Positions 1,858-16,925 of a stretch of 64,000 bases of DNA are shown in pieces. Numbering within the stretch: the stretch's first letter is position 1; every line of letters begins with the position of its first letter. This stretch comes from Vibrio neptunius (GTDB taxonomy: Bacteria; Pseudomonadota; Gammaproteobacteria; Enterobacterales; Vibrionaceae), in contig NZ_JXXU01000027.1 in NCBI RefSeq assembly GCF_000967495.1, forward strand, positions 1-64,000. The letters are read 5' to 3'. The notes beneath the pieces were generated by a model that was not told the DNA's origin, did not search any database, and was given only the letters and a program-made list of their open reading frames with translations. The translations under genes and the position numbers were made by a program.

Positions 1858-2135
1858 ATTTAGATTTCACCTTATATAGACAAAGCTCTCATCTTTGATT
1901 CTTATCCCATCAATCAAGTAATAGTAAAAACTCTATTTCAATAATTTTATAAACCGTGTGCATATCCATAGATTAACCAAAATAACAATATGCAACACAG
2001 GTAGTAAATGCATAGTGTGAAATTTGTAATCAGGTTCTCTTTGGCACAACGAGAACCCAGTAAACATGCTTGATGTTTGTAGTAGGCCATGTTCAACAAT
2101 CTCTTTTACTATTCAAATATTCAAAGGAAGACAGT

Positions 2136-3392
2136 ATGTTTAAGAAATTATTAAGTTGTTGTATCGCCTCGACTCTTTCAGTCGTCTCAACCTCGGGGCT
2201 TGCGCAACAAAACGAAGTAGGAGCTATTGCATCTGAGGACCCAATGCTTGCGCCTTTAATGACAGCGTCGGCAAAATCTGCGATCACAAATCAATACATC
2301 GTTGTGCTAAAACAACCACTGACAATGAGTAATGATCAACAAGCCCTTCAGCAGTTTACCCAACAAACTGTGTCTGGTCTCGCTAGCCAACATGCATTTA
2401 AAATCGATAAAGTTTATGACCGCTCGTTAAGTGGTTTTGTCGCTACCCTTTCTGATGAACAATTGAAAGCCCTGCGTGCTGATCAACAAGTCGACTTTAT
2501 TGAACAAGACCAAATCATCTCGCTCGATCCTGTTATCTCGGCGAACGCCACTCAAAGCAATCCTGTTTGGGGATTAGACCGCATCGATCAGCGTGATTTA
2601 CCACTCAGCAACAGCTACACCTACAACTACGACGGTTCAGGTGTGACAGCTTATGTTATCGATACTGGTGTGACAAACACTCACGTTGAGTTCGGTGGCC
2701 GTGCAAGATCAGGCTATGACTTTATCGACAACGATAGTGACGCGACTGACTGTAACGGTCACGGTACTCATGTAGCAGGCACCATTGGTGGTGTTCAATA
2801 CGGTGTGGCGAAAAACGTCGATATCGTCGGTGTACGTGTACTAAGCTGTAGCGGCTTCGGTACCATTTCAGGTGCTATTAGCGGTGTGAATTGGGTAGCG
2901 GCCAACGCCTCTGGCCCATCGGTGGCCAACATGAGTTTACGTGCGGGTGTTTCAACCGCGTTAGATCAAGCGGTAGCAAGCGCGGTTCAGTCAGGTATAA
3001 GCTTTACGCTTGCAGCAGGTAACGACAACGCTGACGCTTGTAACACCTCACCAGCTCGCGAAGCGAGCGGTGTGACTGTTGGTTCGACAACCAGCAGAGA
3101 TAGTCGCTCAAGCTTCTCTAATTGGGGACGCTGTGTTGACGTGTTTGCGCCCGGTTCGAATATCAAATCGGCTTGGTACCAAGGTGGCTACCGCACCATG
3201 AGTGGGACATCGATGGCGGCACCTCATGTAGCGGGCGTAGCGGCTCTGTATCTGCAAGAAAACAACACTCTGTCACCAGCTCAAGTATCAACGCTGATCA
3301 GCCAACGTGCGAGCACAAACAAAGTTAGTGATACTAAAGGTACTGTCAACAAGCTGCTATATAGCCTAACCGACAGTGGCTTGGCACATTGA
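2136..3392 (+). CDS. Secreted S8 subtilisin-like serine protease, copy 2
   Basis: Same length (418 aa) and architecture as the gene at 358: signal peptide, I9 propeptide, S8 catalytic domain with the same triad positions (D176, H212, S359). Start ATG 2136 has the same AAAGGA upstream. The N-terminal half is nearly identical to copy 1, while changes cluster in the catalytic domain: the substrate-binding strand motif SLGGG (267-271) is SLRAG here, AAGNSN becomes AAGNDN, and GTSMAT becomes GTSMAA. The catalytic residues are intact, so it is probably active with altered specificity (inference). It is transcribed from its own duplicated leader and has its own terminator. Confidence 0.95.
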   Translation: MFKKLLSCCIASTLSVVSTSGLAQQNEVGAIASEDPMLAPLMTASAKSAITNQYIVVLKQPLTMSNDQQALQQFTQQTVSGLASQHAFKIDKVYDRSLSGFVATLSDEQLKALRADQQVDFIEQDQIISLDPVISANATQSNPVWGLDRIDQRDLPLSNSYTYNYDGSGVTAYVIDTGVTNTHVEFGGRARSGYDFIDNDSDATDCNGHGTHVAGTIGGVQYGVAKNVDIVGVRVLSCSGFGTISGAISGVNWVAANASGPSVANMSLRAGVSTALDQAVASAVQSGISFTLAAGNDNADACNTSPAREASGVTVGSTTSRDSRSSFSNWGRCVDVFAPGSNIKSAWYQGGYRTMSGTSMAAPHVAGVAALYLQENNTLSPAQVSTLISQRASTNKVSDTKGTVNKLLYSLTDSGLAH

Positions 3393-5920: not shown

Positions 5921-6808
5921 TTAACCAACATAAGCTGATTCTCTTTCAGGGCTTGAGGCAACCATAAGCTGATTCTCTTTCAGGGCTTGAGGCAACCATA
6001 AGCTGAGTTTCATCAGTAATTCGCTCTCCGGCAACTGATTGTGTTCAACCAATGTCTGCCAAGCAACGGGGGTGGGCGAGCGGTTTGTTTCCTTCTGACC
6101 AAACAGACTGAGGGACCGTACAACATCAGCCTGCCAAGGTTCAAGTTGAGCCATCTTTACCTGAAAGTGATGACGATAAACGAGCAAAGACTCGGCCCCA
6201 AGCGTGGGCATAGTCGGCTTTTCAGCCCACAAACCTTGTTCAAGTGCGGTCGTATGGCGATCTGCGGCCAGTACATAGTCACGCAAGGCAAAATCGTGCT
6301 CTACTAATTCACTGCTGTCAGGCAATGCTAGCGCTGGGAGCTGAAGCAAGCCCCCCAAGTCCGGCGCTTGGTCATATTGAACTCCAGGAGCGCGGATCGC
6401 GTTTGCCTGCGCCCTCTCCAACCTTGCCAATTGCTCCGGGATCTTAAGTTCTACTGCATAGGGTTGACCACTATGTTGACGAGGGCGTGTTGCGGCAAGA
6501 AAGTTGGCGAAGTCTTCACCCAATTGATACAAACTATAGTGACGTGACGGACGCTGTTGCAGATACCCTAAACTAAACAGGCGGAACAGCGCCTCGCCTA
6601 GGTAGTGCTGCAATGCCGGAAACTCTGCCTCCATGCACTCTAACAAACGTAAACGATAACCATCTTGGTAAATAGCCAAACGTGCCGACGACGATAACTC
6701 TGCTGTTCCCATGATGTAGTGACTTGCCATTTGATTGGCCTTGGGGCCTTGTAGAATCGACTCTAACAACCACTGCTGGCGTGCTGCTAACTCACTGGTT
6801 GAGCTCAT
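5921..6808 (-). CDS. DUF2063 (HvfC/BufC-like) partner of the MNIO enzyme
   Basis: 295 aa. The N-terminal part (about 5-110, with RLAIYQDGYRLRLLECMEAEFPAL) is the DUF2063 domain, which in metallo-RiPP clusters accompanies DUF692/MNIO enzymes and is thought to bind the precursor. The start overlaps the stop of the upstream MNIO gene by 4 nt (ATGA), so the two are translationally coupled and probably act as a complex. The C-terminus is abnormal: a 34-bp tandem duplication (5930-5997) shifts the reading frame, so the last residues read MVASSPERESAYVG instead of a tail ending MLVNSL. The main domain is unaffected. Confidence 0.85.
   Translation of the reverse strand: MSSTSELAARQQWLLESILQGPKANQMASHYIMGTAELSSSARLAIYQDGYRLRLLECMEAEFPALQHYLGEALFRLFSLGYLQQRPSRHYSLYQLGEDFANFLAATRPRQHSGQPYAVELKIPEQLARLERAQANAIRAPGVQYDQAPDLGGLLQLPALALPDSSELVEHDFALRDYVLAADRHTTALEQGLWAEKPTMPTLGAESLLVYRHHFQVKMAQLEPWQADVVRSLSLFGQKETNRSPTPVAWQTLVEHNQLPESELLMKLSLWLPQALKENQLMVASSPERESAYVG
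5930..5997. repeat. 34-bp tandem duplication at the 3' end of the DUF2063 gene
   Basis: Two perfect copies of a 34-bp unit beginning ataagctgattctctttc (5930-5963 and 5964-5997), followed by the first 9 bases of a third. Since 34 is not a multiple of 3 the insertion changes the C-terminal reading frame of the minus-strand gene. Confidence 0.95.
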
Positions 6809-7833
6809 TCGACCTCCTGCACAGAATGAAACTGTTTTCGGCCAAGCGCATCGGAAATGGGGGTCGATAGCACCGTATCTTGGTTTACTTTCATTAGTTC
6901 GCGTTGTGGGATGTGCCCTTGTAATACAGATTTGGCAATGTTCAACTCGTCGACCAACTTTGGAAATTCAGGAATATTGGCATCCCATTCAAGCAATGTT
7001 GATATTGGCCTGCCTGCTTGTTCAAGCATTTGTTGATAGAGCTGCCACACTGCTGTCGGTACTGGTTTGTCATGAGTGTCAATCAAATGAGTACCACAAT
7101 CGGTCGGACCCGCTAAATGACATTGCACCACTGCATCCATAGGAATACCAGCCATGTAGTCGTTCACTGAAAAGCCCAGGTTCTTCGCGCTCACATACAC
7201 ATTATTGACATCCAATAACAAGCGGCAACCGCTACGCTGTACCAACTGAGCAAGAAACTCCCACTCTTGGAGATCATTTTCTTGAAAAGCAAAATAGGTG
7301 CTGGGGTTTTCTATAACAAGTGGCCTTTGCAGATAGTCTTGAACCTGTTGCACTCTTGCACACACATGGTTAAGACTCTCTTGGGTAAATGGGATCGGCA
7401 GCAACTCGTGACTATTAATACCCTGAATTCCTGTCCAACAGAGGTGGTCGGAAACCAATGTTGGCTCAAGGTCTTGGCATAATTGTCGCAGTTTACTGAG
7501 GTAGTGTTCATTCAAAGGTTCGCTCGAACCAATTGACATCGAGACACCATGAAGGGCTATCGGGTAGTGTTCTCGAAGCTTAAAGAGTAGGTGACGAGCA
7601 TAACCGTGGTGATCGAGATAGTTCTCACTGATGGCTTCAAACCAATCAACACCACTTTGCTCTGGTAATAGGTGTTGCTCAAGCCAAGCAAAATGACATG
7701 AGCGGAGGCCGACACCAAATCCCATTGAAGTACTTAGTTCTTGATGAGATTTAGAGATCGTTGCGGTTGAAGAACTGGAGGTATCTGAGATGTCGCGCAT
7801 TGGCATCCTTCCAACTGAATCTATGGTCATCAT
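6805..7833 (-). CDS. DUF692 / MNIO multinuclear non-heme iron oxidase (HvfB/BufB-like)
   Basis: 342 aa TIM-barrel enzyme of the DUF692 family. Characterised members (MbnB, TglH, ChrH, BufB) oxidatively modify cysteines of peptide substrates. Metal-ligand type motifs are present in order: FEAISENY (about 65-72), ALHGVSMSIG (H95), SDHLCW, ENPSTYF, LDVNNVYVSAKNLG, QCHLAG, DTHDKPV and LLEWDANIP. I choose ATG 7833 (ATGATG) with GGGAGGT upstream over a GTG at 7848. That Shine-Dalgarno lies inside a 10-bp-stem hairpin (7834-7863). It lies 65 bp downstream of the ferritin-like gene and overlaps the DUF2063 gene, so the three form one operon. The likely substrate is the Cys-rich tail of the upstream protein (inference). 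Confidence 0.92.
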   Translation of the reverse strand: MMTIDSVGRMPMRDISDTSSSSTATISKSHQELSTSMGFGVGLRSCHFAWLEQHLLPEQSGVDWFEAISENYLDHHGYARHLLFKLREHYPIALHGVSMSIGSSEPLNEHYLSKLRQLCQDLEPTLVSDHLCWTGIQGINSHELLPIPFTQESLNHVCARVQQVQDYLQRPLVIENPSTYFAFQENDLQEWEFLAQLVQRSGCRLLLDVNNVYVSAKNLGFSVNDYMAGIPMDAVVQCHLAGPTDCGTHLIDTHDKPVPTAVWQLYQQMLEQAGRPISTLLEWDANIPEFPKLVDELNIAKSVLQGHIPQRELMKVNQDTVLSTPISDALGRKQFHSVQEVE

Positions 7834-7863
7834 GGCCCTACCTCCCACAAGGTAGGTAGGGCC
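7834..7863 (-). promoter_or_regulatory. Hairpin covering the ribosome-binding site of the MNIO gene
   Basis: Perfect inverted repeat GGCCCTACCT-N10-AGGTAGGGCC ending one base before the ATG of the MNIO gene on the minus strand. The 3' arm contains the Shine-Dalgarno sequence. It has no U-tract, so it reads as a translation-limiting or RNA-processing hairpin rather than a terminator. Confidence 0.6.
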
Positions 7864-7898
7864 AAACGCTTAATCAATCTGCAAATTAGGATTCGCCA

Positions 7899-9986
7899 TT
7901 AGGTAGAGGGTGGAAACGCCAAACGTAAATCAGAAGGCTCTGGTTTATCAACGGCGGTTTTTCCATCCACGGCTAACGCTTTACTGTATGCTTGCCAAGC
8001 AACGTCATACACGGCATCGCCTTTGGCAAACTGTACCCCATCGTTGGGGATCTGCTCTGGAGCGTTTCCGGCTCGAAGTTGATAGATCGGCATTAATCCA
8101 CTGTCGGGATAGAGTTGTGACGCAGAAATCGGTACCGCACAACCGCCTAGACCACCACAGGCATTGTCGGCCGGAGGTGAGTATAACTCTGGCGCACCAC
8201 AGCCTGCTTGGACTGCGTTCTTATTGCTCGGCGTAGCGCTGAGGCTTCGACAACCAGCGCCACCTCCGGAGGTTTTCTGCACGAATCCACAACCGCCTTC
8301 CGCTTTACAGCTATTCGAGCCGCGACAGGTGTGAAATATCTGTTTCGATGCGCAGCCATTCTTCGGTTCATCTGGGCCGGGTTGTAGTGCCATACCTTGA
8401 CACGCATGATAAAGATAATCGCGCTCGCGTTCCGGAATACGTTGGTAGTCTGCATCATCTTTGGTTAGCGACAAATCGGGAGCTCGACCAAACACCGCCC
8501 AGCAAATAGAGACACGATCACCCGAGCCAGACATGGATGGGAAAGGGAAGTCGACGTTTTTGTTTGTCCAATACTTGTTAAGTACCGTAGTAATGCCAGC
8601 TATTGCTCCAATTGCGACATGACTCATTTCTTCCCATTGATCATCGCCTCCGGCTTTAAGATTATTGAGCGCAGTTGAGACCGCTTCAGCAGAGGGCAAT
8701 GCCGCAGCATATTGGTTATCTTTATACTCTGCTGTCTGCAAATCGTCAGCCTGCCATTGATTGGCATCTTTCCCGTGCCAGTCTACCCAAGTGGTGATTT
8801 CGCCCGATTCCAACAAGCCTTTCACCTGCTGAAAACGATCATAGTGATCGACGACACCACCAAAAAATCGAGCATGGGCAGCACCAGACATCGGCAGTTC
8901 GTCACCGTGTTCATCATACTGCTTATAATCGGTTTGCAACGCATGGAAGTTAGGCTGGTAGTTCGGCTCGACCGGAGCGCCAACCAAACCGGCGGGCAAG
9001 TCGTGAGCTGGCTCAGTTTTCATGGTCGCTCCTTCACCCTGATCCGTGATCGCGTTCATCAATTGAAAAATTTGCCTTTTCGCTTGGTTGAGATCTTTTG
9101 AATCTACCACGGTTTTCATGCGTGGGAACTCGGCGAGTGGATGGCCAGCTTCTTCGGTATTGAATAAGTCCTGTTGAATAGAGTTCGGATCGAAAAGTTT
9201 ACTAAATAGGCTATTACCATCGCTATAAGTGATGTTTAGATACGCAGCTAGACATTCATACATTGTTGCAATCGTACCAAATAGCGGCAGCTCTGCTTCG
9301 GTTGAGCTTGCGCTCCAACCAGCAAAAGGCACACTACCATCAACGCCCTGATCGTTGGTTGCAATGTACTTATCCCGTTTTTTGGGGCAGATACGACTGG
9401 CGAGAACATCCGATGGCTCCTCAATCAAAAGAAACAGATCAATGCTGTTATCATTTAACTCTTCCAGCGCCACCTTCACCGTGTTGTACGGCGCTTCGGA
9501 CAAATCGGTAAGGTCTAAAATATGCGGAATGGTGGTTTTATCATCACCGTAACAAATCCAGCTGTAGTCAGCGTTCATCAACAATGGCGAGTTAAAATCT
9601 GCTGGCTTTGCTTCGCTACCTGCTACAGTGTTGCTTAAAGCATTGTGAATATTAGCGGCCATTTGCAAGTGCAGCATCTCTTGAATAAAAACACTGAAGA
9701 TCAAGTTGCATGCTTGCTCATTGGCGGTTTGTGGATTAGGCGTGGGCGAAATACCCGGCCAACGGCGACCGAGATAGAGCGCATTACCCTCTCCTGTGAT
9801 TGAGTGCATACCATGTATTGAATACATAGTGGTCATGTATAGCGGTATGGTGAACAGCTCGACATTGATCGCCGCCTGAGTCAGGCAACGCACGGCGTTT
9901 ACATCGGCCAACAAATGGCTAATGTCTCTGTTCGTTAACTGCGCGTTACGTTCTAACTGTAACCCGGCCAAACGTTGAAAATCCAT
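7899..9986 (-). CDS. VioB-type ferritin-like protein with Cys-rich MNIO-substrate-like tail
   Basis: 695 aa. The N-terminal domain (about 20-260) matches the ferritin-like fold of VioB/iminophenylpyruvate dimer synthase proteins, with carboxylate/His iron ligands visible at E43 (NVELFTIPLY) and E103xxH106 (FIQEMLHLQ). Near the C-terminus there is a Gly/Cys-rich segment (about 529-616) with nine Cys, including HTCRGSNSCKAEGGCGF, CGAPELY and NACGGLGGC. This resembles Cys motifs of bufferin-type MNIO substrates. About 76 further residues follow. There is no signal peptide. Start ATG 9986 has AAAGGA upstream. It is the first gene of the operon with the MNIO and DUF2063 genes, which suggests the tail is modified in trans, giving a metal-binding or oxidised-thiol ferritin-like enzyme. 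The ferritin assignment is fairly firm; the substrate role is inferred from motif and context. Confidence 0.8.
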   Translation of the reverse strand: MDFQRLAGLQLERNAQLTNRDISHLLADVNAVRCLTQAAINVELFTIPLYMTTMYSIHGMHSITGEGNALYLGRRWPGISPTPNPQTANEQACNLIFSVFIQEMLHLQMAANIHNALSNTVAGSEAKPADFNSPLLMNADYSWICYGDDKTTIPHILDLTDLSEAPYNTVKVALEELNDNSIDLFLLIEEPSDVLASRICPKKRDKYIATNDQGVDGSVPFAGWSASSTEAELPLFGTIATMYECLAAYLNITYSDGNSLFSKLFDPNSIQQDLFNTEEAGHPLAEFPRMKTVVDSKDLNQAKRQIFQLMNAITDQGEGATMKTEPAHDLPAGLVGAPVEPNYQPNFHALQTDYKQYDEHGDELPMSGAAHARFFGGVVDHYDRFQQVKGLLESGEITTWVDWHGKDANQWQADDLQTAEYKDNQYAAALPSAEAVSTALNNLKAGGDDQWEEMSHVAIGAIAGITTVLNKYWTNKNVDFPFPSMSGSGDRVSICWAVFGRAPDLSLTKDDADYQRIPERERDYLYHACQGMALQPGPDEPKNGCASKQIFHTCRGSNSCKAEGGCGFVQKTSGGGAGCRSLSATPSNKNAVQAGCGAPELYSPPADNACGGLGGCAVPISASQLYPDSGLMPIYQLRAGNAPEQIPNDGVQFAKGDAVYDVAWQAYSKALAVDGKTAVDKPEPSDLRLAFPPST

Positions 9987-10193
9987 AATTGCTTCCTTTG
10001 CTTTCTATACTTTTATAATTGGTGTCCAACACAACAAAGGCTTATTGATACCTATATGCATTAAGACACATAAAGTATATGGTGGATTTTCTATTCCGCC
10101 AGAAATGCACTTAACTCGATTCGGGCGCAGAGGGTATAGGTAGAATTCATCACCTCCCTGTTATTTCTGCTAGACGATTTGTGGATTAATTGA

Positions 10194-10319
10194 ATGAGCC
10201 TAGACACCAAATTAGGTGATAAAGCCTCCACCATAGATGAAATGTTCAACGACAAAACGCTGACGGCCAGTGAAGCGTATGATTTCTTTATGCGGGAAAA
10301 AGAGGAGAATCAGGATTAA
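10194..10319 (+). CDS. Small hypothetical protein
   Basis: 41 aa (MSLDTKLGDKASTIDEMF through EENQD), acidic and soluble in character, with no recognised domain. It sits between the MNIO operon promoter and the VapBC pair. The ribosome-binding site is weak. It could be a remnant of a larger gene; support is composition and an uninterrupted frame only. Confidence 0.35.
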   Translation: MSLDTKLGDKASTIDEMFNDKTLTASEAYDFFMREKEENQD

Positions 10320-10407
10320 GCCTCAACTCAGTGTTTGACGCTTTGATAACATCCAGCGCTCACTGAGGTGGGTGTTGGATGTCATCCACTCCAACGACGT
10401 AAACTTA

Positions 10408-10440
10408 TGGTGCCTGTCCCTAAATGACTTTCTAAATGAC
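10408..10440 (+). repeat. Interspersed repeat, copy 5, upstream of vapBC
   Basis: Exact-core TGGTGCCTGTCCCTAAATGA followed by a second partial unit TTTCTAAATGAC, about 50 bp upstream of the vapBC promoter. Confidence 0.85.
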
Positions 10441-10492
10441 TTTAATGAATTCATAAGCCGCAGAAATTGCGCTGTAAAACGCATGCCTATGC

Positions 10493-10520
10493 TTGACAGA
10501 GATAGCGTATATTTTACACT
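10493..10520 (+). promoter_or_regulatory. Sigma70-type promoter of vapBC
   Basis: TTGACA (10493-10498), 16-bp spacer, TACACT (10515-10520), 37 bp before the vapB start. Toxin-antitoxin promoters are usually autorepressed by the antitoxin complex, but I did not identify an operator confidently. Confidence 0.6.
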
Positions 10521-10557
10521 TAACATAGGTTTGGCATATGCTCAAAAAGAGGGTGTG

Positions 10558-10791
10558 ATGAGAACAGTATCTATTTTTAAAAATGGCAAGAATCAAGCAG
10601 TGCGCTTGCCAAAAGATTTTGAGTTTGACGGCGTCAATGAGCTTGAAATCCACAAAGAGGGTGATGTCATCACCCTGCGCCCAGTTCGTCCAGATTGGCT
10701 TTCATTTGGTGAGCAAGAAAAAGCTGATAGTGATTTTATGGTAAACCGTGAAGATGTGATGAAGGACGAAGGACGATTCAATTTTGAGTAA
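10558..10791 (+). CDS. vapB: VapB-family antitoxin (AbrB/SpoVT type)
   Basis: 77 aa. The N-terminal swapped-hairpin DNA-binding pattern of AbrB-like VapB/VagC antitoxins is visible: VSIFKNGKNQAVRLPKDFEF then ELEIHKEGDVITLRPVRPDW. The C-terminal half (WLSFGEQEKAD to FNFE) is the expected flexible toxin-binding tail. ATG 10558 follows AGAGGG at good spacing; a longer reading frame upstream has no such site. The stop overlaps the start of vapC by 8 nt. It neutralises the PIN-domain RNase and represses the operon. Confidence 0.9.
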   Translation: MRTVSIFKNGKNQAVRLPKDFEFDGVNELEIHKEGDVITLRPVRPDWLSFGEQEKADSDFMVNREDVMKDEGRFNFE

Positions 10792-11206
10792 AAAAATCAA
10801 CTATATGCTCGATACATGTACTTGCGCGTTCATTATGAGAGAGCAACCAATTGCGGTGCTTCAAAAGCTTCAAACAGTGGTTGGTGAACAGCATCGAATC
10901 GTTATTTCAGCCATTACCTATCAAGAAATGCAGTACGGGTTATTGGGGAAAAAAGCTTCACCTAAACATGCTGTGCTTGTTGACGAATTTTTAAAGCGAG
11001 TTGATGAGATTTTACCTTGGGATAAAGCGGCTGTTGATGCAACTACTGAAGTTAAACGCGATCTAATGTCGAAAGGTACACCGATTGGCAACAACGACAC
11101 TGCTATTGCAGGTCACGCCATGTCGGCTGGCTGTGTGCTTGTCACGAATAACATGAGAGAGTTTCAGCGTGTCGAAGGGCTAGAGCTTGAAGATTGGGTT
11201 CGCTAG
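10784..11206 (+). CDS. vapC: VapC-family PIN-domain RNase toxin
   Basis: 140 aa. PIN-domain acidic residues are in the expected order: D10 in YMLDTCTC, E48 in TYQEMQYG, D105 in GNNDTAIAGHA, and the terminal TNNMREFQRVEGLELEDW signature. VapC toxins cleave RNA, often the initiator tRNA. The frame begins with TTG 10784 overlapping the vapB stop; an internal ATG at codon 8 (MLDTC) is an alternative start. The first motif has Cys where MLDTN is more usual, with the catalytic Asp kept. Confidence 0.9.
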   Translation: MSKKINYMLDTCTCAFIMREQPIAVLQKLQTVVGEQHRIVISAITYQEMQYGLLGKKASPKHAVLVDEFLKRVDEILPWDKAAVDATTEVKRDLMSKGTPIGNNDTAIAGHAMSAGCVLVTNNMREFQRVEGLELEDWVR

Positions 11207-11458: not shown

Positions 11459-11995
11459 TTAATCAGCCCAACGCACCCAGATATCTTGCATTTTGGCGTT
11501 CAACATCGCATCTACGACACTATCATGTACGAACAGAAATGATGGGTCTTGATCAAGCTTAAACAACAGGCGTTGTTGTAGGGGAATGGCATTGAGTTTG
11601 TTGTCGTCCAAAACAGGGACAGTCACGGCACCGATGGAAGGCGTATCGCAGTGCCATTGTGTTGCGTCTTTGTCCAGTACATCATAGCGATTAAAGACAT
11701 GGAAAAAGACATAGTCGATATCATCAATCGTTTCCAACTCTTGCACGGTTCCGATATCAATTTGAGCTTCTTCATCTAAAGCTGGGCGATAAGGGTTTTT
11801 CAGGCGTTCGACGCCTGCTGGCTCCATCGCGGACAGAATATCCGCGTACTTTTCCGCAAAAAATAGCCGCGGGCATTGACAAAAATCCACCACTAAATCC
11901 GGTTGGATTTCCATCATTCTTACTTTGTTAGCCTGTATAAGGCGATTATTTTTCTGATAGTGAACACTACGATGAAAAATCTGATACTCATTCAT
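11459..11995 (-). CDS. Imm11/DUF1629-like T6SS immunity protein, most distal
   Basis: 178 aa, soluble. The C-terminal signature shared by all immunity proteins in this window is present (NAIPLQQRLLFKLDQDPSF then FVHDSVVDAML), preceded by a diverged N-terminal half. ATG 11995 is preferred because AAAGGA lies upstream; a GTG at 11998 is possible. It is the last gene of the array downstream of the minus-strand PAAR effector, so it is likely a stored immunity gene against a related nuclease toxin. Confidence 0.6.
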   Translation of the reverse strand: MNEYQIFHRSVHYQKNNRLIQANKVRMMEIQPDLVVDFCQCPRLFFAEKYADILSAMEPAGVERLKNPYRPALDEEAQIDIGTVQELETIDDIDYVFFHVFNRYDVLDKDATQWHCDTPSIGAVTVPVLDDNKLNAIPLQQRLLFKLDQDPSFLFVHDSVVDAMLNAKMQDIWVRWAD

Positions 11996-12008
11996 CACTA
12001 TTTTCCTT

Positions 12009-12599
12009 TTAAATTGTCATGCCGAAGCGATCATCCCATTGCAATAATGGCACCAGGTGAAGCCCACTTGCATTCAAGGCAATTAATGGCTCTGCGATGC
12101 TGCTATGGACCAAATAATCCATCATGCCTCTGATTGAAAAAATACGACGCTTATCCAGAGGAATGGAAGCGAGTTTAGTGGGGTCTAATCGACAGTTTCT
12201 AGGGTTTCCAACTTCACCGTCATCTAAACGATCAGAGTATTGACCGTTATCAAAATCGTAAGCATCGACATTATTATCGACGACTAGTACTGAGTACGGG
12301 TACTCATTATCATCATTATGGGTGTACACAGCAGGAAGTAGTTGAACCCTATAAAGATCATAATATTCTAGTACTTTTGTTATTCTCTCCGACAGTACAG
12401 GGTCACTCGGGGCGGCCATCGCTTCGATAAGTGGCACACTTTTTTGCGCTTCTGCAGCGGATTCAATCTGGATAGGAACCTTGAGTGACACAGGATATTG
12501 GAAAACTAGGTAGTGGCTTTTACTACAAGAAACGTAAGGGGAAGGAACTTCACCAGAGCCACATACAAGCACGTAATATTCTTCGTTAATATCTGACAT
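12009..12599 (-). CDS. Imm11/DUF1629-like T6SS immunity protein
   Basis: 196 aa. It begins MSDINEEYYVLVCGSGEVP, like the EYYLIASAGPC start of its neighbours, and has the core LDPTKLASIPLDKRRIFSIRGMMDYLVHSSIAEPL. The middle (about 60-130) is diverged, as expected when each member matches a different toxin variant. It is followed by the next immunity gene after 13 bp, so the two are co-transcribed. Start ATG 12599 has only a weak GGACAA upstream. Confidence 0.65.
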   Translation of the reverse strand: MSDINEEYYVLVCGSGEVPSPYVSCSKSHYLVFQYPVSLKVPIQIESAAEAQKSVPLIEAMAAPSDPVLSERITKVLEYYDLYRVQLLPAVYTHNDDNEYPYSVLVVDNNVDAYDFDNGQYSDRLDDGEVGNPRNCRLDPTKLASIPLDKRRIFSIRGMMDYLVHSSIAEPLIALNASGLHLVPLLQWDDRFGMTI

Positions 12600-12705
12600 T
12601 ATTATTGTCCAATTTGTAGGTCATAGTTTGTCTATCTCAGGTAATAAACAAATCCATCACAGTGAGTAGCTCAATAGCGGGGTAGTCATTATTGGGGCTG
12701 TTGAT

Positions 12706-13257
12706 TTAAGTACATTGTTCACAGGGTATAAAGGTGGTATTGATCGGATTGGTCGCCATGATACGTTCGACAATGGTACGGTGGAACAGAATGTAAGCTG
12801 CCTCTTCCATCTTAAAGATCAGTCGCTGATTGAGTGGCGTTTCAGCAAGGAACTTTTCATCAATGACTATTTTTTTTAATCCCGATACTCCGCCGAATGC
12901 GTTGACACGAGAGTACTCTGACTTATCAAGATCGAGGCATTTAAGCTTTTGCATATAGTTGATGAATAAATAGTCTCTGTGTCCTTTGCTGTTTTTGATG
13001 AACGCCGGCACCCAGTGGATACCGTAGAGGTATTGTAGCCCAGCTTCTATTACCACTCGCTTAGATAAAGCTATGACTCCAGTGCGCACAAATTCCGGAG
13101 TCTCGTAATCGCCTTCCGGCTTAAAGGTTTCGTAAATCCGAATCGGTTCAATAGGCGGGCGGGCACACGCTTTAAAACCAATATAATGTTCATTAAAATC
13201 GCTGACCTCGGCCACCGCGCAGGGGCCCGCGCTGGCAATTAAATAATATTCGCTCAT
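12706..13257 (-). CDS. Imm11/DUF1629-like immunity protein, duplicate of the effector-coupled one
   Basis: 183 aa, very similar to the gene at 13840: both begin MSEYYLIASAGPCA, share ACARPPIEPIRIYETFKPEG, and end HRTIVERIMATNPINTTFIPCEQ. ATG 13257 follows AGGAAA. The 43 bp just upstream (13258-13300) are a copy of the 3' end of the effector gene, showing that the effector tail and immunity gene were duplicated together. Changes between the two copies fall mainly in residues 18-30 and 55-66. Confidence 0.8.
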   Translation of the reverse strand: MSEYYLIASAGPCAVAEVSDFNEHYIGFKACARPPIEPIRIYETFKPEGDYETPEFVRTGVIALSKRVVIEAGLQYLYGIHWVPAFIKNSKGHRDYLFINYMQKLKCLDLDKSEYSRVNAFGGVSGLKKIVIDEKFLAETPLNQRLIFKMEEAAYILFHRTIVERIMATNPINTTFIPCEQCT

Positions 13258-13300
13258 TTTCCTATTTCCAAGTTACCTTTTTTCGTCATCCATTCGCCTT
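13258..13300 (-). repeat. Orphan copy of the effector C-terminal tail
   Basis: On the minus strand this reads GEWMTKKGNLEIGK-stop, against GELMTKKGNLEIGT-stop at the real effector end (14391-14435). It stands directly before the second immunity copy. Confidence 0.85.
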
Positions 13301-13305
13301 TGGTG

Positions 13306-13336
13306 AAAGCCCGCCAAGTGAGTGGCGGGCTTTTTT
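13306..13336 (+). terminator. Hairpin with T-tract
   Basis: AAAGCCCGCC-N10-GGCGGGCTTTTTT. The T-run follows on the plus strand although flanking genes are on the minus strand; on the minus strand only TTT follows. It may block antisense read-through or act as a weak bidirectional terminator. Confidence 0.5.
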
Positions 13337-13416
13337 GTCTAACGCTGTTGATGCTACTGGGCTCGAATAGACGAAGCTGGGGCAAATTCCCCTTGTAAGC
13401 ATCCAATCATAAGGGG

Positions 13417-13830
13417 TTAGTACAATCTATCAAACCACACATCAACTGCGCCTGCTTGTTGCAACCCAATCAGGAAGTCGGTGTTGATCTTCAGCTCTTT
13501 GTTATCCCAAACGAGTGGTGTTTGCTTTGCGACATGGTCATCAAGTGACGATAGTTCCGGTAAGATAGCAAAATCAATAAAGGCATACTCGTCACACGTT
13601 TTATCCAAGTCATGCTCGGTATTGGGCACGTTAAAATCTAACTCTGCCCACCACTGTGTGAGTTGGTCGAGCCACTTTTCATCCAGTTCTTCTAAGATAT
13701 CTTCGTAAATATAGAGGGTTTTGATCTCACCAAAATTCATGTAAACGTCTGGTTGCGTGAAAACAAACTTTGCGCGCTTTTCAGGCAAAATGGTGGCGAT
13801 AGTGGCTTTATCAAAAGGAATAAATGTCAT
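13417..13830 (-). CDS. Hypothetical protein inside the immunity array
   Basis: 137 aa, acidic, soluble, not similar to the surrounding immunity proteins and not recognised. It starts with ATG 13830 (AAGGAC upstream), 9 bp after the effector-coupled immunity gene, so it belongs to the same transcript. Position suggests a second immunity factor, perhaps left from a different toxin tip, but nothing in its sequence proves that. Confidence 0.6.
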   Translation of the reverse strand: MTFIPFDKATIATILPEKRAKFVFTQPDVYMNFGEIKTLYIYEDILEELDEKWLDQLTQWWAELDFNVPNTEHDLDKTCDEYAFIDFAILPELSSLDDHVAKQTPLVWDNKELKINTDFLIGLQQAGAVDVWFDRLY

Positions 13831-13839
13831 GCTATGTCC

Positions 13840-14394
13840 TTATACAATAGACTGTTCGCAAGGTATAAATGTGGTGTTAATCGGATTGGTCGCCATGATA
13901 CGTTCGACGATGGTACGGTGGAACAGAATGTAAGTTGCCTCTTCCATCTTAAAGATCAGTCGCTGATTGAGTGGCGTTTCAGCAAGGAAGTTTTCATCAA
14001 TAACTATTTTTGTTAATCCCGATGCTCCGCCGATTACATTGACATGTGAGTACTCTGACTTTTCAAAATCGAGGCATTTGAGCTCCTGTAGGTAGTTGAT
14101 GAATAAATAGTCTCTATGCCCTTTATTGTTTTTGATGAACGCCGGTACCCAGTGGATACCGTAGATATATTGTAGACCTGCTTCCATTACCACTCGCTTA
14201 GATAAAGCGTCAACTTTGGTGTGTATAAATTCCGGAGTCTCGTAATCGCCTTCCGGCTTAAAGGTTTCGTAAATCCGAATCGGTTCAATAGGCGGGCGAG
14301 CGCACGCTTTATAATCAATATAATCTAGATTTCGAACGCTGACCTCGGTTGACGCGCAAGGGCCCGCGCTGGCAATTAAATAATACTCACTCAT
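13840..14394 (-). CDS. Cognate Imm11/DUF1629-like immunity protein of the PAAR-AHH effector
   Basis: 184 aa, cytoplasmic. Its ATG overlaps the effector stop (ATGA at 14391-14394), the usual arrangement for an effector-immunity pair, so it is the best candidate for the cognate inhibitor. Family features are the EYYLI start, ARPPIEPIRIYETFKPEG, and the C-terminal LAETPLNQRLIFKMEEATYILFHRTIVERIM. Family name rests on the pattern of DUF1629/Imm11 proteins that accompany AHH toxins in Vibrio; no alignment was run. Confidence 0.75.
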   Translation of the reverse strand: MSEYYLIASAGPCASTEVSVRNLDYIDYKACARPPIEPIRIYETFKPEGDYETPEFIHTKVDALSKRVVMEAGLQYIYGIHWVPAFIKNNKGHRDYLFINYLQELKCLDFEKSEYSHVNVIGGASGLTKIVIDENFLAETPLNQRLIFKMEEATYILFHRTIVERIMATNPINTTFIPCEQSIV

Positions 14395-16679
14395 GTTCCT
14401 ATCTCCAAGTTGCCTTTTTTCGTCATTAATTCGCCGTCAGTGTTGACTAATTCGTGATTAACTGACGAGCCATTTTTTCTGTGTTTACAAGGGGTACGTG
14501 GTTTATCTTTGTTTTCTTTCTTGGCATTGGCGCAGCCGATACTCGCACCTTTGCGGTAGTCTTTACCAAACCCTGTAATGGTCCAAGTGAAATTATCAAT
14601 ATGTTCTACCCCACGTCTACTTAAGCTACGCATTTCCTTGAAGAATTCCGTATCCTGCTTTTCATCGTGACAAAATGTCCCTTTTTTGATCATCTGCTCT
14701 ATTTGTTCTAATTGTTTTTCTATCGCTTTTATATAGGTGGCGTTTGAAACGCGTAATCGCTCGTCTTCCGAGTCAGGAATGTCCTGACCTGCTTCAATTA
14801 AGGCCAGCATACTGGTGTAGTCGACTCCTTTGGCATGTGGCCCTTTATGAACCGCGACCCCCAATTGGCAGGCCACATCAGTGGCCGAGGGCAAAAACAC
14901 GCCATTTTTGGTTTCGTCAATATCATACTTAAAATGGCTACGGTATTTCTTCCACTGCTCGTTCATCACGGTTTCAGACGTGATCACATGGTGAGCTTGC
15001 AGATTACCGGAACGGGGATTACGAACATCACACCAAGGGTGCAATTTGTAATCTTTGCTTGCTGGTCTTTTCGCTGTGATCCCAGCCTTCCAGCCCGCAT
15101 TTAACAAATTCTTGGCTAAAAAGGCGCTATTGCCTTCTTTTGCATATTTTCCGATGGTGGGTGCTTTGGCGCCTTTACAAAATGTCGGATCATTCTTTTT
15201 AGCGCCCTTTTTTATCCTTCTATTACACAGTGGACAACGGTTCTTCTTCTTCTTTTTTTTCTGATTCGCGACATCACGCCGATTACCATGCTGAGCGGTA
15301 GGTTTGGCATCATAGGTCGAGCGAGCAGGGTACACCTTGTCGGACTTGGCAGTGATTCGAGCAATGTTATCGTCCATCTCTTTTAGAACATGGTTGAACA
15401 TATCGGGTGCGACATTATCAATTATTTTTAACTCGGCACCGACAGATATTAAGTTATCGCCCAATACGGTATAGCCTAACCGATTTGCATACCCTGCCAT
15501 TTCTTCAAAAGCTTGAATCGAAGGTTTCAGGATATCGGACAAGATTTTGGCACAATCTTGGGTGTATTGTGTGAACTTTAATTCGCGCAAGAACTTGGCT
15601 GGGTTGCCTTTACCAAGTTGGCGTATGAAAGCCAGTAGGTCATCCAACTTGATGTCCTTACCGACTTCGATGATGATTTTCCCAACGCCTTTAAGTAGAC
15701 TTCCGAGTGTAGGAATACAGCCAATTACAGTCAGCCCCAAGGCGCTCCAGTTCTCTGACTCTGCTCTTCCTTCTTCGCTACTTAACTTGATGATATTGGC
15801 GGTAATATCGCGTACGTCGGCAGCTTGGTCAATAAACGGAATCATCGTAATGCCAGTATTCGCGATGATTTGAGCAACGGTTGGGTCTTCGTTGAAGTCC
15901 CCTAGCACCACTCCCCATACCCATTCGAAAGCACCCAATGTAGCCGACTTTGTCGATTCCCAAAATCCGGGTTTGCCTTGTTTGGCTGCATTGATGATGT
16001 CCTCAGCGGTCACGTCAGGGTTAAAGGCTGGGTTGGCCAATGTGGGCTCATTTGGGGTAAATTCTCGGCTATCTTCCCCATATTCTACCGAAAACTCGCC
16101 AGGTGCGAGGCCACTGACCGTAGCTTTGCCTTTAGTGTCGAGTTGTCCTTCAAACTTGGTGTTTTTGCTATCAATAACCGTGTAGGGAGCACCTTGCACT
16201 GGCTCGCCATCTAAATATAGTAGCTCTAGGTCAACAGTATATGTCCCTTCGTCATCTTCGGTGATGATCACAGAAGGGTTTTGTGCACCACCAAGGCACA
16301 TGGTGTTGGCGTTGTTCATGGTCATTTGGTCAGACAAACGACATACACCTTTACCTTCTATTGAAACCGTGGGGGAAGCAGAGATAAATTTGGCTGCGGC
16401 TTCGATGGTGCCTGAAGCAACCCCTTTTTTATCGCCGCCTGCATCTCCGGTACTTGCAGAGAATTTACTGCCCTTAATCGCGATACTGTTACCACCATCC
16501 ATAGTGACGGTGGTCGTTCCATCGACCAGATCAGCAGATTTCGCATTGTTACCATAGGGGATAGGGACAACGGCATTACCGACAGTGGTTAGACAAACGT
16601 CAGGCAATGTGGCATTGGCTTCACCGCCGGAGCCCTTATGAACTACGCTAAGTCCATTTGCGTTAACTGTTACAGCCAT
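14391..16679 (-). CDS. T6SS PAAR-like (DUF4150) effector with C-terminal AHH-type nuclease
   Basis: 762 aa. Residues 1 to about 125 form a DUF4150 PAAR-like tip domain (VNANGLSVVHKGSGGEANA, VPIPYGNNAKSADL, GKGVCRLSDQMTMNNANTMCLGG) that caps the VgrG spike. An Ig-like/carboxypeptidase-regulatory-type linker follows (about 130-190), then an alpha-helical middle. The C-terminal third has a Cys-pair zinc motif after a Lys run (CPLC, about 480) and an AHH nuclease core NLQAHHVITSE (about 563) with HKGPHAKGVDY. ATG 16679 has AAGGTG upstream and starts the tip domain exactly. It is expected to be delivered into rival cells and cut nucleic acid; the adjacent immunity gene protects the producer. No vgrG or hcp is nearby, so this is an auxiliary cargo locus. 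Confidence 0.85.
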   Translation of the reverse strand: MAVTVNANGLSVVHKGSGGEANATLPDVCLTTVGNAVVPIPYGNNAKSADLVDGTTTVTMDGGNSIAIKGSKFSASTGDAGGDKKGVASGTIEAAAKFISASPTVSIEGKGVCRLSDQMTMNNANTMCLGGAQNPSVIITEDDEGTYTVDLELLYLDGEPVQGAPYTVIDSKNTKFEGQLDTKGKATVSGLAPGEFSVEYGEDSREFTPNEPTLANPAFNPDVTAEDIINAAKQGKPGFWESTKSATLGAFEWVWGVVLGDFNEDPTVAQIIANTGITMIPFIDQAADVRDITANIIKLSSEEGRAESENWSALGLTVIGCIPTLGSLLKGVGKIIIEVGKDIKLDDLLAFIRQLGKGNPAKFLRELKFTQYTQDCAKILSDILKPSIQAFEEMAGYANRLGYTVLGDNLISVGAELKIIDNVAPDMFNHVLKEMDDNIARITAKSDKVYPARSTYDAKPTAQHGNRRDVANQKKKKKKNRCPLCNRRIKKGAKKNDPTFCKGAKAPTIGKYAKEGNSAFLAKNLLNAGWKAGITAKRPASKDYKLHPWCDVRNPRSGNLQAHHVITSETVMNEQWKKYRSHFKYDIDETKNGVFLPSATDVACQLGVAVHKGPHAKGVDYTSMLALIEAGQDIPDSEDERLRVSNATYIKAIEKQLEQIEQMIKKGTFCHDEKQDTEFFKEMRSLSRRGVEHIDNFTWTITGFGKDYRKGASIGCANAKKENKDKPRTPCKHRKNGSSVNHELVNTDGELMTKKGNLEIGT

Positions 16680-16925
16680 GATGCACCTTAAGTCATTGAA
16701 AGAGAGGAGAGTAATGATATTAAATTGTGTGCACATTAATCTAACTGAAAGAGCAGTGATAATGCATTATTTAACCTTTAAATTAACCAAATTAATGGTT
16801 ATTGACTGCATGTCTCAAAATGGAATGACACTCGGTGTGTCTTGTCTTTGAGTGAAACTATTGCTGACAGTGCAACGGCATTAGATATTGGTGCCTAGCA
16901 AGGGGGCGGGTAAGACATAAGCCAT

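Follow-up and report, generated by a model that had tools for sequence, protein, structure and literature searches.

Enzymes of the MNIO (DUF692) family are known mainly from their action on peptides, and a three-gene operon of Vibrio neptunius raises the question of what such an enzyme would act upon when the gene that precedes its own encodes a large ferritin-like protein. The operon lies on the minus strand, at positions 5,921 to 9,986 of a 64,000-nucleotide stretch of contig NZ_JXXU01000027.1 (assembly GCF_000967495.1, positions 1 to 64,000), referred to here as the window. An original prediction, made from the letters of the window, proposed that the target is not a small precursor peptide but a Cys-rich tail of the ferritin-like protein itself. 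By combining family alignments, profile searches, genome comparison, RNA folding and structure prediction, we arrive at a related reading, to which we assign a probability of about 0.7: the three genes would specify a large protein together with an enzyme pair that oxidises its Cys segment in place, giving a metal-handling product that is kept in the cell.

The predicted layout of three coupled genes (ferritin-like, DUF692 and DUF2063) is borne out by the ends of the open reading frames (ORFs), which encode 695, 347 (counted from GTG, 6805-7848) and 295 residues, and by the Pfam matches of all three proteins, which exceed the curated cut-offs (Table 1). The MNIO gene probably starts at ATG 7833 instead of GTG 7848, because the residues from there on resemble the start of an 85%-identical relative. 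All nine cysteines previously noted in the first protein are present (residues 529, 545, 554, 560, 566, 579, 596, 610 and 616), within Gly-rich motifs that include HTCRGSNSCKAEGGCGF and NACGGLGGC. In a family alignment of 85 rows, of which 84 are distinct when that of the window is counted (L009 and L048 being the same record), C529, C554, C560, C566, C610 and C616 are invariant, and C579, C545 and C596 are kept in 95%, 93% and 75% of the rows, respectively. The pattern C..xN.C...G.C recurs in 84/85 rows, and every row has N.C with a G[GS]C after it; the residue after C554 is Arg or Lys in 84 rows, and the residue after C560 is Lys, His or Arg in 76. Because six invariant cysteines recur over 84 distinct rows, the segment is, on the evidence of the alignment, not a product of chance, and the proteins that carry it are about 625-800 residues long in most rows. 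An NCBIfam search with the Cys segment alone gave no match. The word tail does not fit, however, since a further part of about 65 residues, modelled with moderate confidence and ending in PPST, lies C-terminal of the segment. The most divergent member (L011, genome G193, 8805-11033, minus strand), at 24% identity, lacks the PPST end, and its Cys segment is nearer to bufferin-2 (CMGLNSCK, CHVLNDCKHQGGC); it is possibly an early form of the fusion between ferritin-like domain and Cys segment.

If the segment is what the enzyme acts upon, the two should travel together. An alignment-based profile scan of genome contigs recovered at least 266 relatives, of which the best 80 were kept; the same contigs scanned with the window protein as a single query yielded no relative. 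The MNIO gene and then the DUF2063 gene lie directly downstream, on the same strand, in 78 of these 80 loci, and the other two (L057 and L073) end at a contig edge. Intergenic gaps, counted from the longest open frames, are at most 162 bp and 179 bp. By their tree labels, the loci belong to five phyla (Pseudomonadota, Bacteroidota, Actinomycetota, Acidobacteriota and Ignavibacteriota), and the module also occurs on two Pseudoalteromonas plasmid records of 1.2-1.3 Mb. Janthinobacterium and Caulobacter are among the carriers of the operon. Its distribution is patchy: with the window's own genome counted, it is found in 2/99 genomes of the genus and 3/398 of the phylum. Genome G020, labelled as the same species, gave no match to the module; the flanks of the operon match G020 at 92-96% and stand about 9.4 kb apart there, and that interval contains one further match, to a short piece of the window immediately upstream of the operon. 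A 57-base stretch at about 10203-10259, just upstream of the operon, has six matching places in G020 at 89% identity, matches that mark it, by sequence comparison, as a repeated element or gene start bordering the variable region beside the operon.

The proteins of the same Pfam family that lack the segment tell against a looser association. PF12902 matches occur in 17/398 genomes, and a profile of the Cys segment matches three of these 17 (G000, which is the window's own genome, G348 and G193), with an MNIO gene adjoining in all three; a further match to the tail profile, in G297, was set aside for its six in-frame stops. At the 14 other PF12902 loci, searched over stretches of 2.9-3.7 kb, neither Cys motif appeared in any frame and there was no MNIO or DUF2063 match. 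A whole-genome search with PF05114 found no MNIO in 11 of these genomes, and in the remaining three (G451, G250 and G486) the MNIOs are on another contig or at a distance of more than 1.7 Mb. A class-wide search around G193, covering 78 genomes, returned only G193 itself and a short match to the ferritin part in G162. Among the 80 loci kept and the 398 genomes, the segment was thus found beside an MNIO gene in 78/78 testable loci and in 3/3 segment-bearing genomes, and not in homologues away from DUF692. Taken with the 14 segment-less genomes, in which the enzyme is absent or distant, this linkage supports the central claim of the original prediction, and the Cys segment of the large ferritin-like protein is, judged from these sequences, very probably the MNIO substrate.

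The known substrates that the segment recalls are the bufferins, which are grouped with oxazolin and others as captophorins. Against a profile of 15 BufA2 sequences, the segment gave an hhalign probability of 79 (E 1.5e-5), and against a Buf1 profile of seven sequences a probability of 22 (E 1e-3); both matches share one register, CxG..N.C....xCxG, and 0/300 column shuffles of either bufferin core reach the real score. The bufferin-2 loci were collected with the NCBI model NF050166, which matches 43/299 genomes, 18 of them over the cut-off. Fifteen of these 18 loci make up the BufA2 profile (L116, L124 and L126 were excluded for a wrong ORF), and six of the 12 loci below the cut-off, with the locus from the window's own genome, make up the Buf1 profile. 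Likeness extends to the gene order, as bufferin operons run precursor, MNIO and partner (in the part of PMC12452194 covered here), to the MNIO, which passes the NCBI BufB model, and to a frequent hairpin at the junction between substrate and enzyme genes. The differences lie in the substrate, here a large protein of ferritin fold, in the enzymes, which group apart and in which Ala, not Asp, follows the catalytic base, and in the neighbourhood, where neither DoxX nor sigma/anti-sigma genes were recognised by eye among the 25 largest groups of neighbouring genes. The original prediction had also set the protein apart from bufferins by its want of a signal peptide. By hydropathy alone, no signal-peptide-like stretch is seen before the first ferritin helix of the window protein, and the median hydropathy before that helix is 0.35 over 84 rows versus a range of 1.84-2.57 for ten bufferins; the rows with the six top values (1.63-2.66) bear long 5' extensions. 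That much of the contrast stands, but as a general separation from bufferins it was drawn too strongly, given the bufferin-2-like Cys core in the same register, the match to the BufB model and the shared junction hairpin.

A tree of 111 MNIOs places the 82 enzymes of ferritin-like operons on one side of one branch (100/92), and the remainder are 17 Buf2-associated enzymes and 12 labelled Buf1, L118 and L129 having given no MNIO. The Buf1 label denotes loci below the BufA2 cut-off, among which DUF2282 is confirmed by Pfam for L001, L128 and L139 only. In the midpoint-rooted drawing, the 82 enzymes are nearer to the 17 Buf2-associated ones than to most of the 12 labelled Buf1; the nearest row outside them is nonetheless a Buf1-labelled one (L131), and several Buf1 rows are long-branched. 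Residues H100, H135, E180, D213, N216, H244, D257, H259 and D289 are identical in all 111, and the candidate iron ligands and catalytic Asp are intact in the window MNIO, these roles having been matched to VcMbnB by order and spacing (PMC8888699), not by structure, and taken also from the covered part of PMC13419390. Two positions distinguish the group: the residue after the catalytic base (Ala290 in the window MNIO) is Ala in 79/82 versus Asp in 14/17 Buf2 MNIOs (mixed in Buf1), and the residue after a conserved HLAG is Pro in 76/82 versus His or Phe in 29/29 others. According to the part of PMC13097082 consulted, the first of these sites is occupied by Phe in MNIOs of the Lys-Cys kind and by Asp in those of the Cys-Lys kind, and it affects which residues are tolerated around the Cys.

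The junction between the ferritin-like and MNIO genes carries an RNA hairpin in the window (Table 1), and L010 has a hairpin at the same place with a different sequence. Junction z-scores are biased low because the best of 14 sub-windows is taken, and the same procedure was therefore applied to control places. Values of z < -3 occur at 36/79 substrate-MNIO junctions, compared with 2 of the 79 loci at the MNIO-DUF2063 junction, 7 and 15 at two places inside the ferritin-like gene, and 6 inside the MNIO gene. After bufferin genes, a hairpin is present in 10/21 cases versus 1/21 at a control place (an MNIO was found at 20 of these 21 junctions; L118, which has none, is included). Of 37 strong hairpins at these junctions, only 2 have a T run after them, and the hairpins therefore do not resemble terminators. 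Such a hairpin would lower the enzyme relative to its substrate, as a substrate consumed stoichiometrically needs, and it may be a general device for setting the ratio of substrate to enzyme in MNIO operons. No clear shared promoter motif was found in four upstream regions, and scans for sigma-70 promoters and for terminators returned fewer sites than shuffled sequences did on average.

These observations bear on a rival explanation, in which the Cys segment binds metal without being modified, as an ordinary zinc, iron-sulphur or copper-thiolate site, and the true target of the MNIO-DUF2063 pair is the product of another locus. Stretches rich in Cys and Gly can bind metal as they are, and the same genome does carry, on contig C90 (L001), a bufferin-1 operon that provides a substrate in trans (DUF2282, PF05114, DUF2063 and DoxX, all above cut-offs). 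Yet that operon has an MNIO and partner of its own, and the strict linkage in the 78 testable loci, the separate grouping of the associated MNIOs, the bufferin-like motif and the junction hairpins also speak against this explanation. We consider this explanation very improbable.

Another candidate substrate was sought near the operon. Within about 1.2 kb upstream and 1 kb downstream of 84 loci, no Cys-rich small ORF (22-199 residues, at least three Cys) is common beyond near relatives, the largest small-ORF group being six Sphingomonas loci. A conserved wider gene cluster was likewise considered and rejected: among ORFs of at least 60 residues grouped over at least six loci, many of which have less than 8 kb of flank, the 25 largest groups are wide superfamilies (e.g. 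ABC ATPase and LysR) or reflect gene order shared by related strains, for the most part seven Sphingomonas loci. Both results count against the idea that the ferritin-like protein acts as an additional tailoring enzyme in a pathway for a ribosomally synthesised and post-translationally modified peptide (RiPP) whose small precursor has been overlooked. It is true that for many MNIO clusters the precursor is difficult to recognise, as the covered part of PMC12452194 reports, but we find this idea barely credible here.

What the ferritin-like domain does is a separate matter. An AlphaFold2 model of the 695-residue protein, built on 42 rows, has a mean predicted local distance difference test (pLDDT) score of 81.5 and a predicted template modelling score (pTM) of 0.87. 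In the VIA-align search, residues 14-506 superpose on CC_0557 (PDB 3HL1) with Z 28.9 and a root-mean-square deviation of 2.6 over 283 residues, and the next rows have Z of at most 3.5; the name VioB-type given to the protein by the original prediction derives from its Pfam family, PF12902, alone. The ferritin-like ligands named there (E43, E103 and H106) are present and, with E189 and E318, conserved at 99-100% over the 85 rows. The pLDDT drops below 50 at residues 553-560, 564-567, 573-597 and 606-619, and the Cys segment is predicted to be unstructured or flexible. A Foldseek search with the Cys segment and C-terminal part alone (residues from about 500) found nothing below E 0.001, with a poor query model (pLDDT 55.8). 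The modelled architecture is thus one of an iron-type fold, with putative di-iron metal binding, that is followed by a flexible Cys segment and then by a small C-terminal part. The likeness to CC_0557 and to other PF12902 proteins consists of the fold of residues 14-506 and the ligand motifs; 3HL1 (289-317 residues) has no counterpart to residues 507-695, and the 14 sampled PF12902 loci without the segment differ in having no adjoining MNIO.

Since the ligands are conserved along with the cysteines, the ferritin domain has probably been kept as an active site and not as a carrier only. This co-conservation invites the proposal that the protein tailors itself: the MNIO would act first on the Cys segment, after which the di-iron domain to which the segment is joined would oxidise it further, either as a substrate in cis or as a protein-derived cofactor. 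The segment directly follows the fold and is itself followed by a conserved C-terminal part, and the layout would resemble that of borosins, which already fuse enzyme and core peptide (as far as the partly covered borosin source goes). PF12902 proteins without the segment are, however, the commoner form (14/17 genomes). We know of no activity for a CC_0557-like domain, which also counts against self-tailoring, and we regard the proposal as unlikely. A broader version, in which the protein is a di-iron-type oxidase with an MNIO-built cofactor or core peptide in cis, likewise seems to us unlikely; there, a dedicated MNIO would turn the Cys segment into metal-binding heterocycles, and the chain would hold either a mixed iron/copper centre or a RiPP that has tailored itself without being released from its enzyme.

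We return to the reading of a large protein oxidised in place by its own enzyme pair. From the architecture, linkage, conservation and intact enzyme residues described above, we infer the following mechanism. The operon would encode a large, probably cytosolic protein plus its own modifying pair; residues 14-506 would form the CC_0557-like ferritin-like fold with its conserved di-iron-type ligands, and residues from about 529 to 616 a flexible, bufferin-2-like Cys segment. The DUF2063 partner would recognise the substrate and the MNIO would oxidise some of the conserved cysteines, the likeliest being C554 and C560 of C[RK]GSNxC[KHR] and perhaps C545, C566, C610 and C616 as well. By analogy, each modified Cys would lose 4 H and become a 5-thiooxazole, and we lean towards a product of this type. 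For 5-thiooxazole, PMC13097082 gives a loss of about 4 Da per Cys and an absorbance at around 302-305 nm. The modified protein would stay in the cell and bind a soft metal next to the iron site, the end product being a metal-handling or redox protein and not a secreted peptide. None of the 25 largest neighbour groups is conspicuous as a metal gene, and the metal is therefore a guess; copper would be the probable choice for the site, although a copper-related function for the protein is put forward only tentatively.

Several further points weigh against this reading. The entire case for Cys modification is drawn from sequence, and the 80 loci that were kept are the closest of at least 266 relatives, the distant ones being less well covered. 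Type-1 partners have so far accompanied precursors with signal peptides (in the part of PMC12452194 covered), and the ferritin-like protein shows none. No strong hairpin is present at 43/79 substrate-MNIO junctions. The pLDDT values below 50 are consistent with disorder and fall short of proof of it. The match to bufferins, of which BufA2 has a six-Cys CxGxNxCKG core, is short, spanning 30 columns and not the full length, and its control consisted of shuffled columns only, with no unrelated Cys-rich families. Moreover, NF050166, the NCBI model for BufA2, gives no match to the window protein, and of five relatives the most divergent reaches 12 bits (cut-off 60) and the other four none. Because the match is short and controlled by column shuffles only, and because NF050166 stays below its cut-off on six family members, the segment is bufferin-like but is not classed here as a bufferin.

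Comparable arrangements have been described in part. Fusions of bufferin domains are on record in a few instances (MerC|Buf1, MerC|Buf2, Buf1|cytochrome c|FGE-sulfatase and Buf_EGKCG|EF-hand, in the covered part of PMC12452194), and they too attach a bufferin-type domain to a larger protein; in the present case, a whole family, found in five phyla, has the combination as its constant form. The TIGR04222 membrane proteins of the same source are also large and without signal peptides, and have a C-proximal Cys-rich part that may be modified by an adjacent MNIO. They differ in being membrane-bound, in having type-2 partners and in their occasional linkage to MNIO, whereas the family described here combines a ferritin-like fold with a type-1 (DUF2063) partner and strict linkage. 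The words ferritin and VioB are absent from the main text of PMC12452194 (its supplements lie outside this statement, and the family may sit unlabelled in its networks), ferritin is absent from PMC13097082, and in the covered part of PMC8224329, a DUF692 paper, ferritin-like proteins are named only in the title of a reference. Among the papers listed, the open-access literature yielded none on a DUF692/MNIO enzyme paired with a PF12902 or ferritin-like protein, and, as far as that search reaches, the pairing is undescribed.

Table 1. Features of the operon and their coordinates in the window.
Feature	Position	Strand	Basis
Ferritin-like protein of 695 aa (PF12902), proposed substrate of the MNIO; Cys-rich segment internal	7899..9986	-	PF12902 E 4.7e-21, 76.1 bits (cut-off 22.3); architecture common to 84 distinct rows, window's included
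Ferritin-like (CC_0557/3HL1-like) fold, residues 14-506; E43, E103, H106, E189, E318 conserved	8469..9947	-	VIA-align and conservation
Cys-rich segment, residues 529-616, nine Cys of which six invariant	8139..8402	-	Family alignment and pLDDT
Bufferin-2-like Cys core, residues 529-564, CxG..N.C....H.C[RK]GSNxC..xG	8295..8402	-	hhalign against BufA2 profile
C-terminal part, beta-beta-alpha, residues 629-695, PPST end	7902..8102	-	pLDDT 72-82 (block means, 621-690); PPST in 82/85 rows
RNA hairpin at substrate-MNIO junction, enclosing likely ribosome-binding site GGGAGG and ATG 7833	7828..7868	-	-27.2 kcal/mol, z -5.96
MNIO of the DUF692 family; ATG 7833 as likely start, frame open from GTG 7848	6805..7833	-	PF05114 E 2.6e-102, 342 bits (cut-off 25); BufB equivalog model NF050167 348 bits (cut-off 310)
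DUF2063 partner, type-1 MNIO partner, 4-base overlap with MNIO gene	5921..6808	-	PF09836 E 8e-18, 64.9 bits (cut-off 27.2)

The third protein of the operon, the DUF2063 partner, scores 24.7 bits against the HvfC equivalog model, below its cut-off of 142, and a PDB sequence search with it returned no match at E 0.01. The end of its gene contains a perfect 34-bp tandem duplication of 2.3 copies (5929-6006), and the last 11 residues of the protein do not align with relative L010. Elsewhere in the window, a 781-residue Tox-PAAR-like/AHH-nuclease protein is encoded at 14391-16736 on the minus strand, and its gene is followed on that strand by three weak Imm11 matches below the cut-off (13840-14394, 12706-13257 and 11459-11998) and two unmatched ORFs; the region 11459-16736 has the appearance of a locus for a secreted nuclease toxin and a series of immunity genes. 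On the plus strand, at 319-1614 and 2070-3392, lie two subtilase genes in tandem whose products carry I9 inhibitor prodomains, and the stretch of the second has two matching places in G020, the genome labelled as the same species.

MNIOs have been proposed, from sequence, to modify proteins as well as peptides (in the covered part of PMC12452194), and the ferritin-like family provides a clear and widespread test case for this: a probably cytosolic protein with a defined fold, its own group of enzymes and invariant candidate cysteines, in a module of three genes. The family also departs from the correlation between type-1 partners and signal-peptide precursors reported in the covered part of that study. 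Were the modified segment to serve the ferritin-like domain as a cofactor in cis, it would be, as far as the literature found here goes, the first MNIO product to work within a folded enzyme. If the segment is oxidised in place as we propose, bufferin-type chemistry would extend into the interior of the cell and to metalloproteins.

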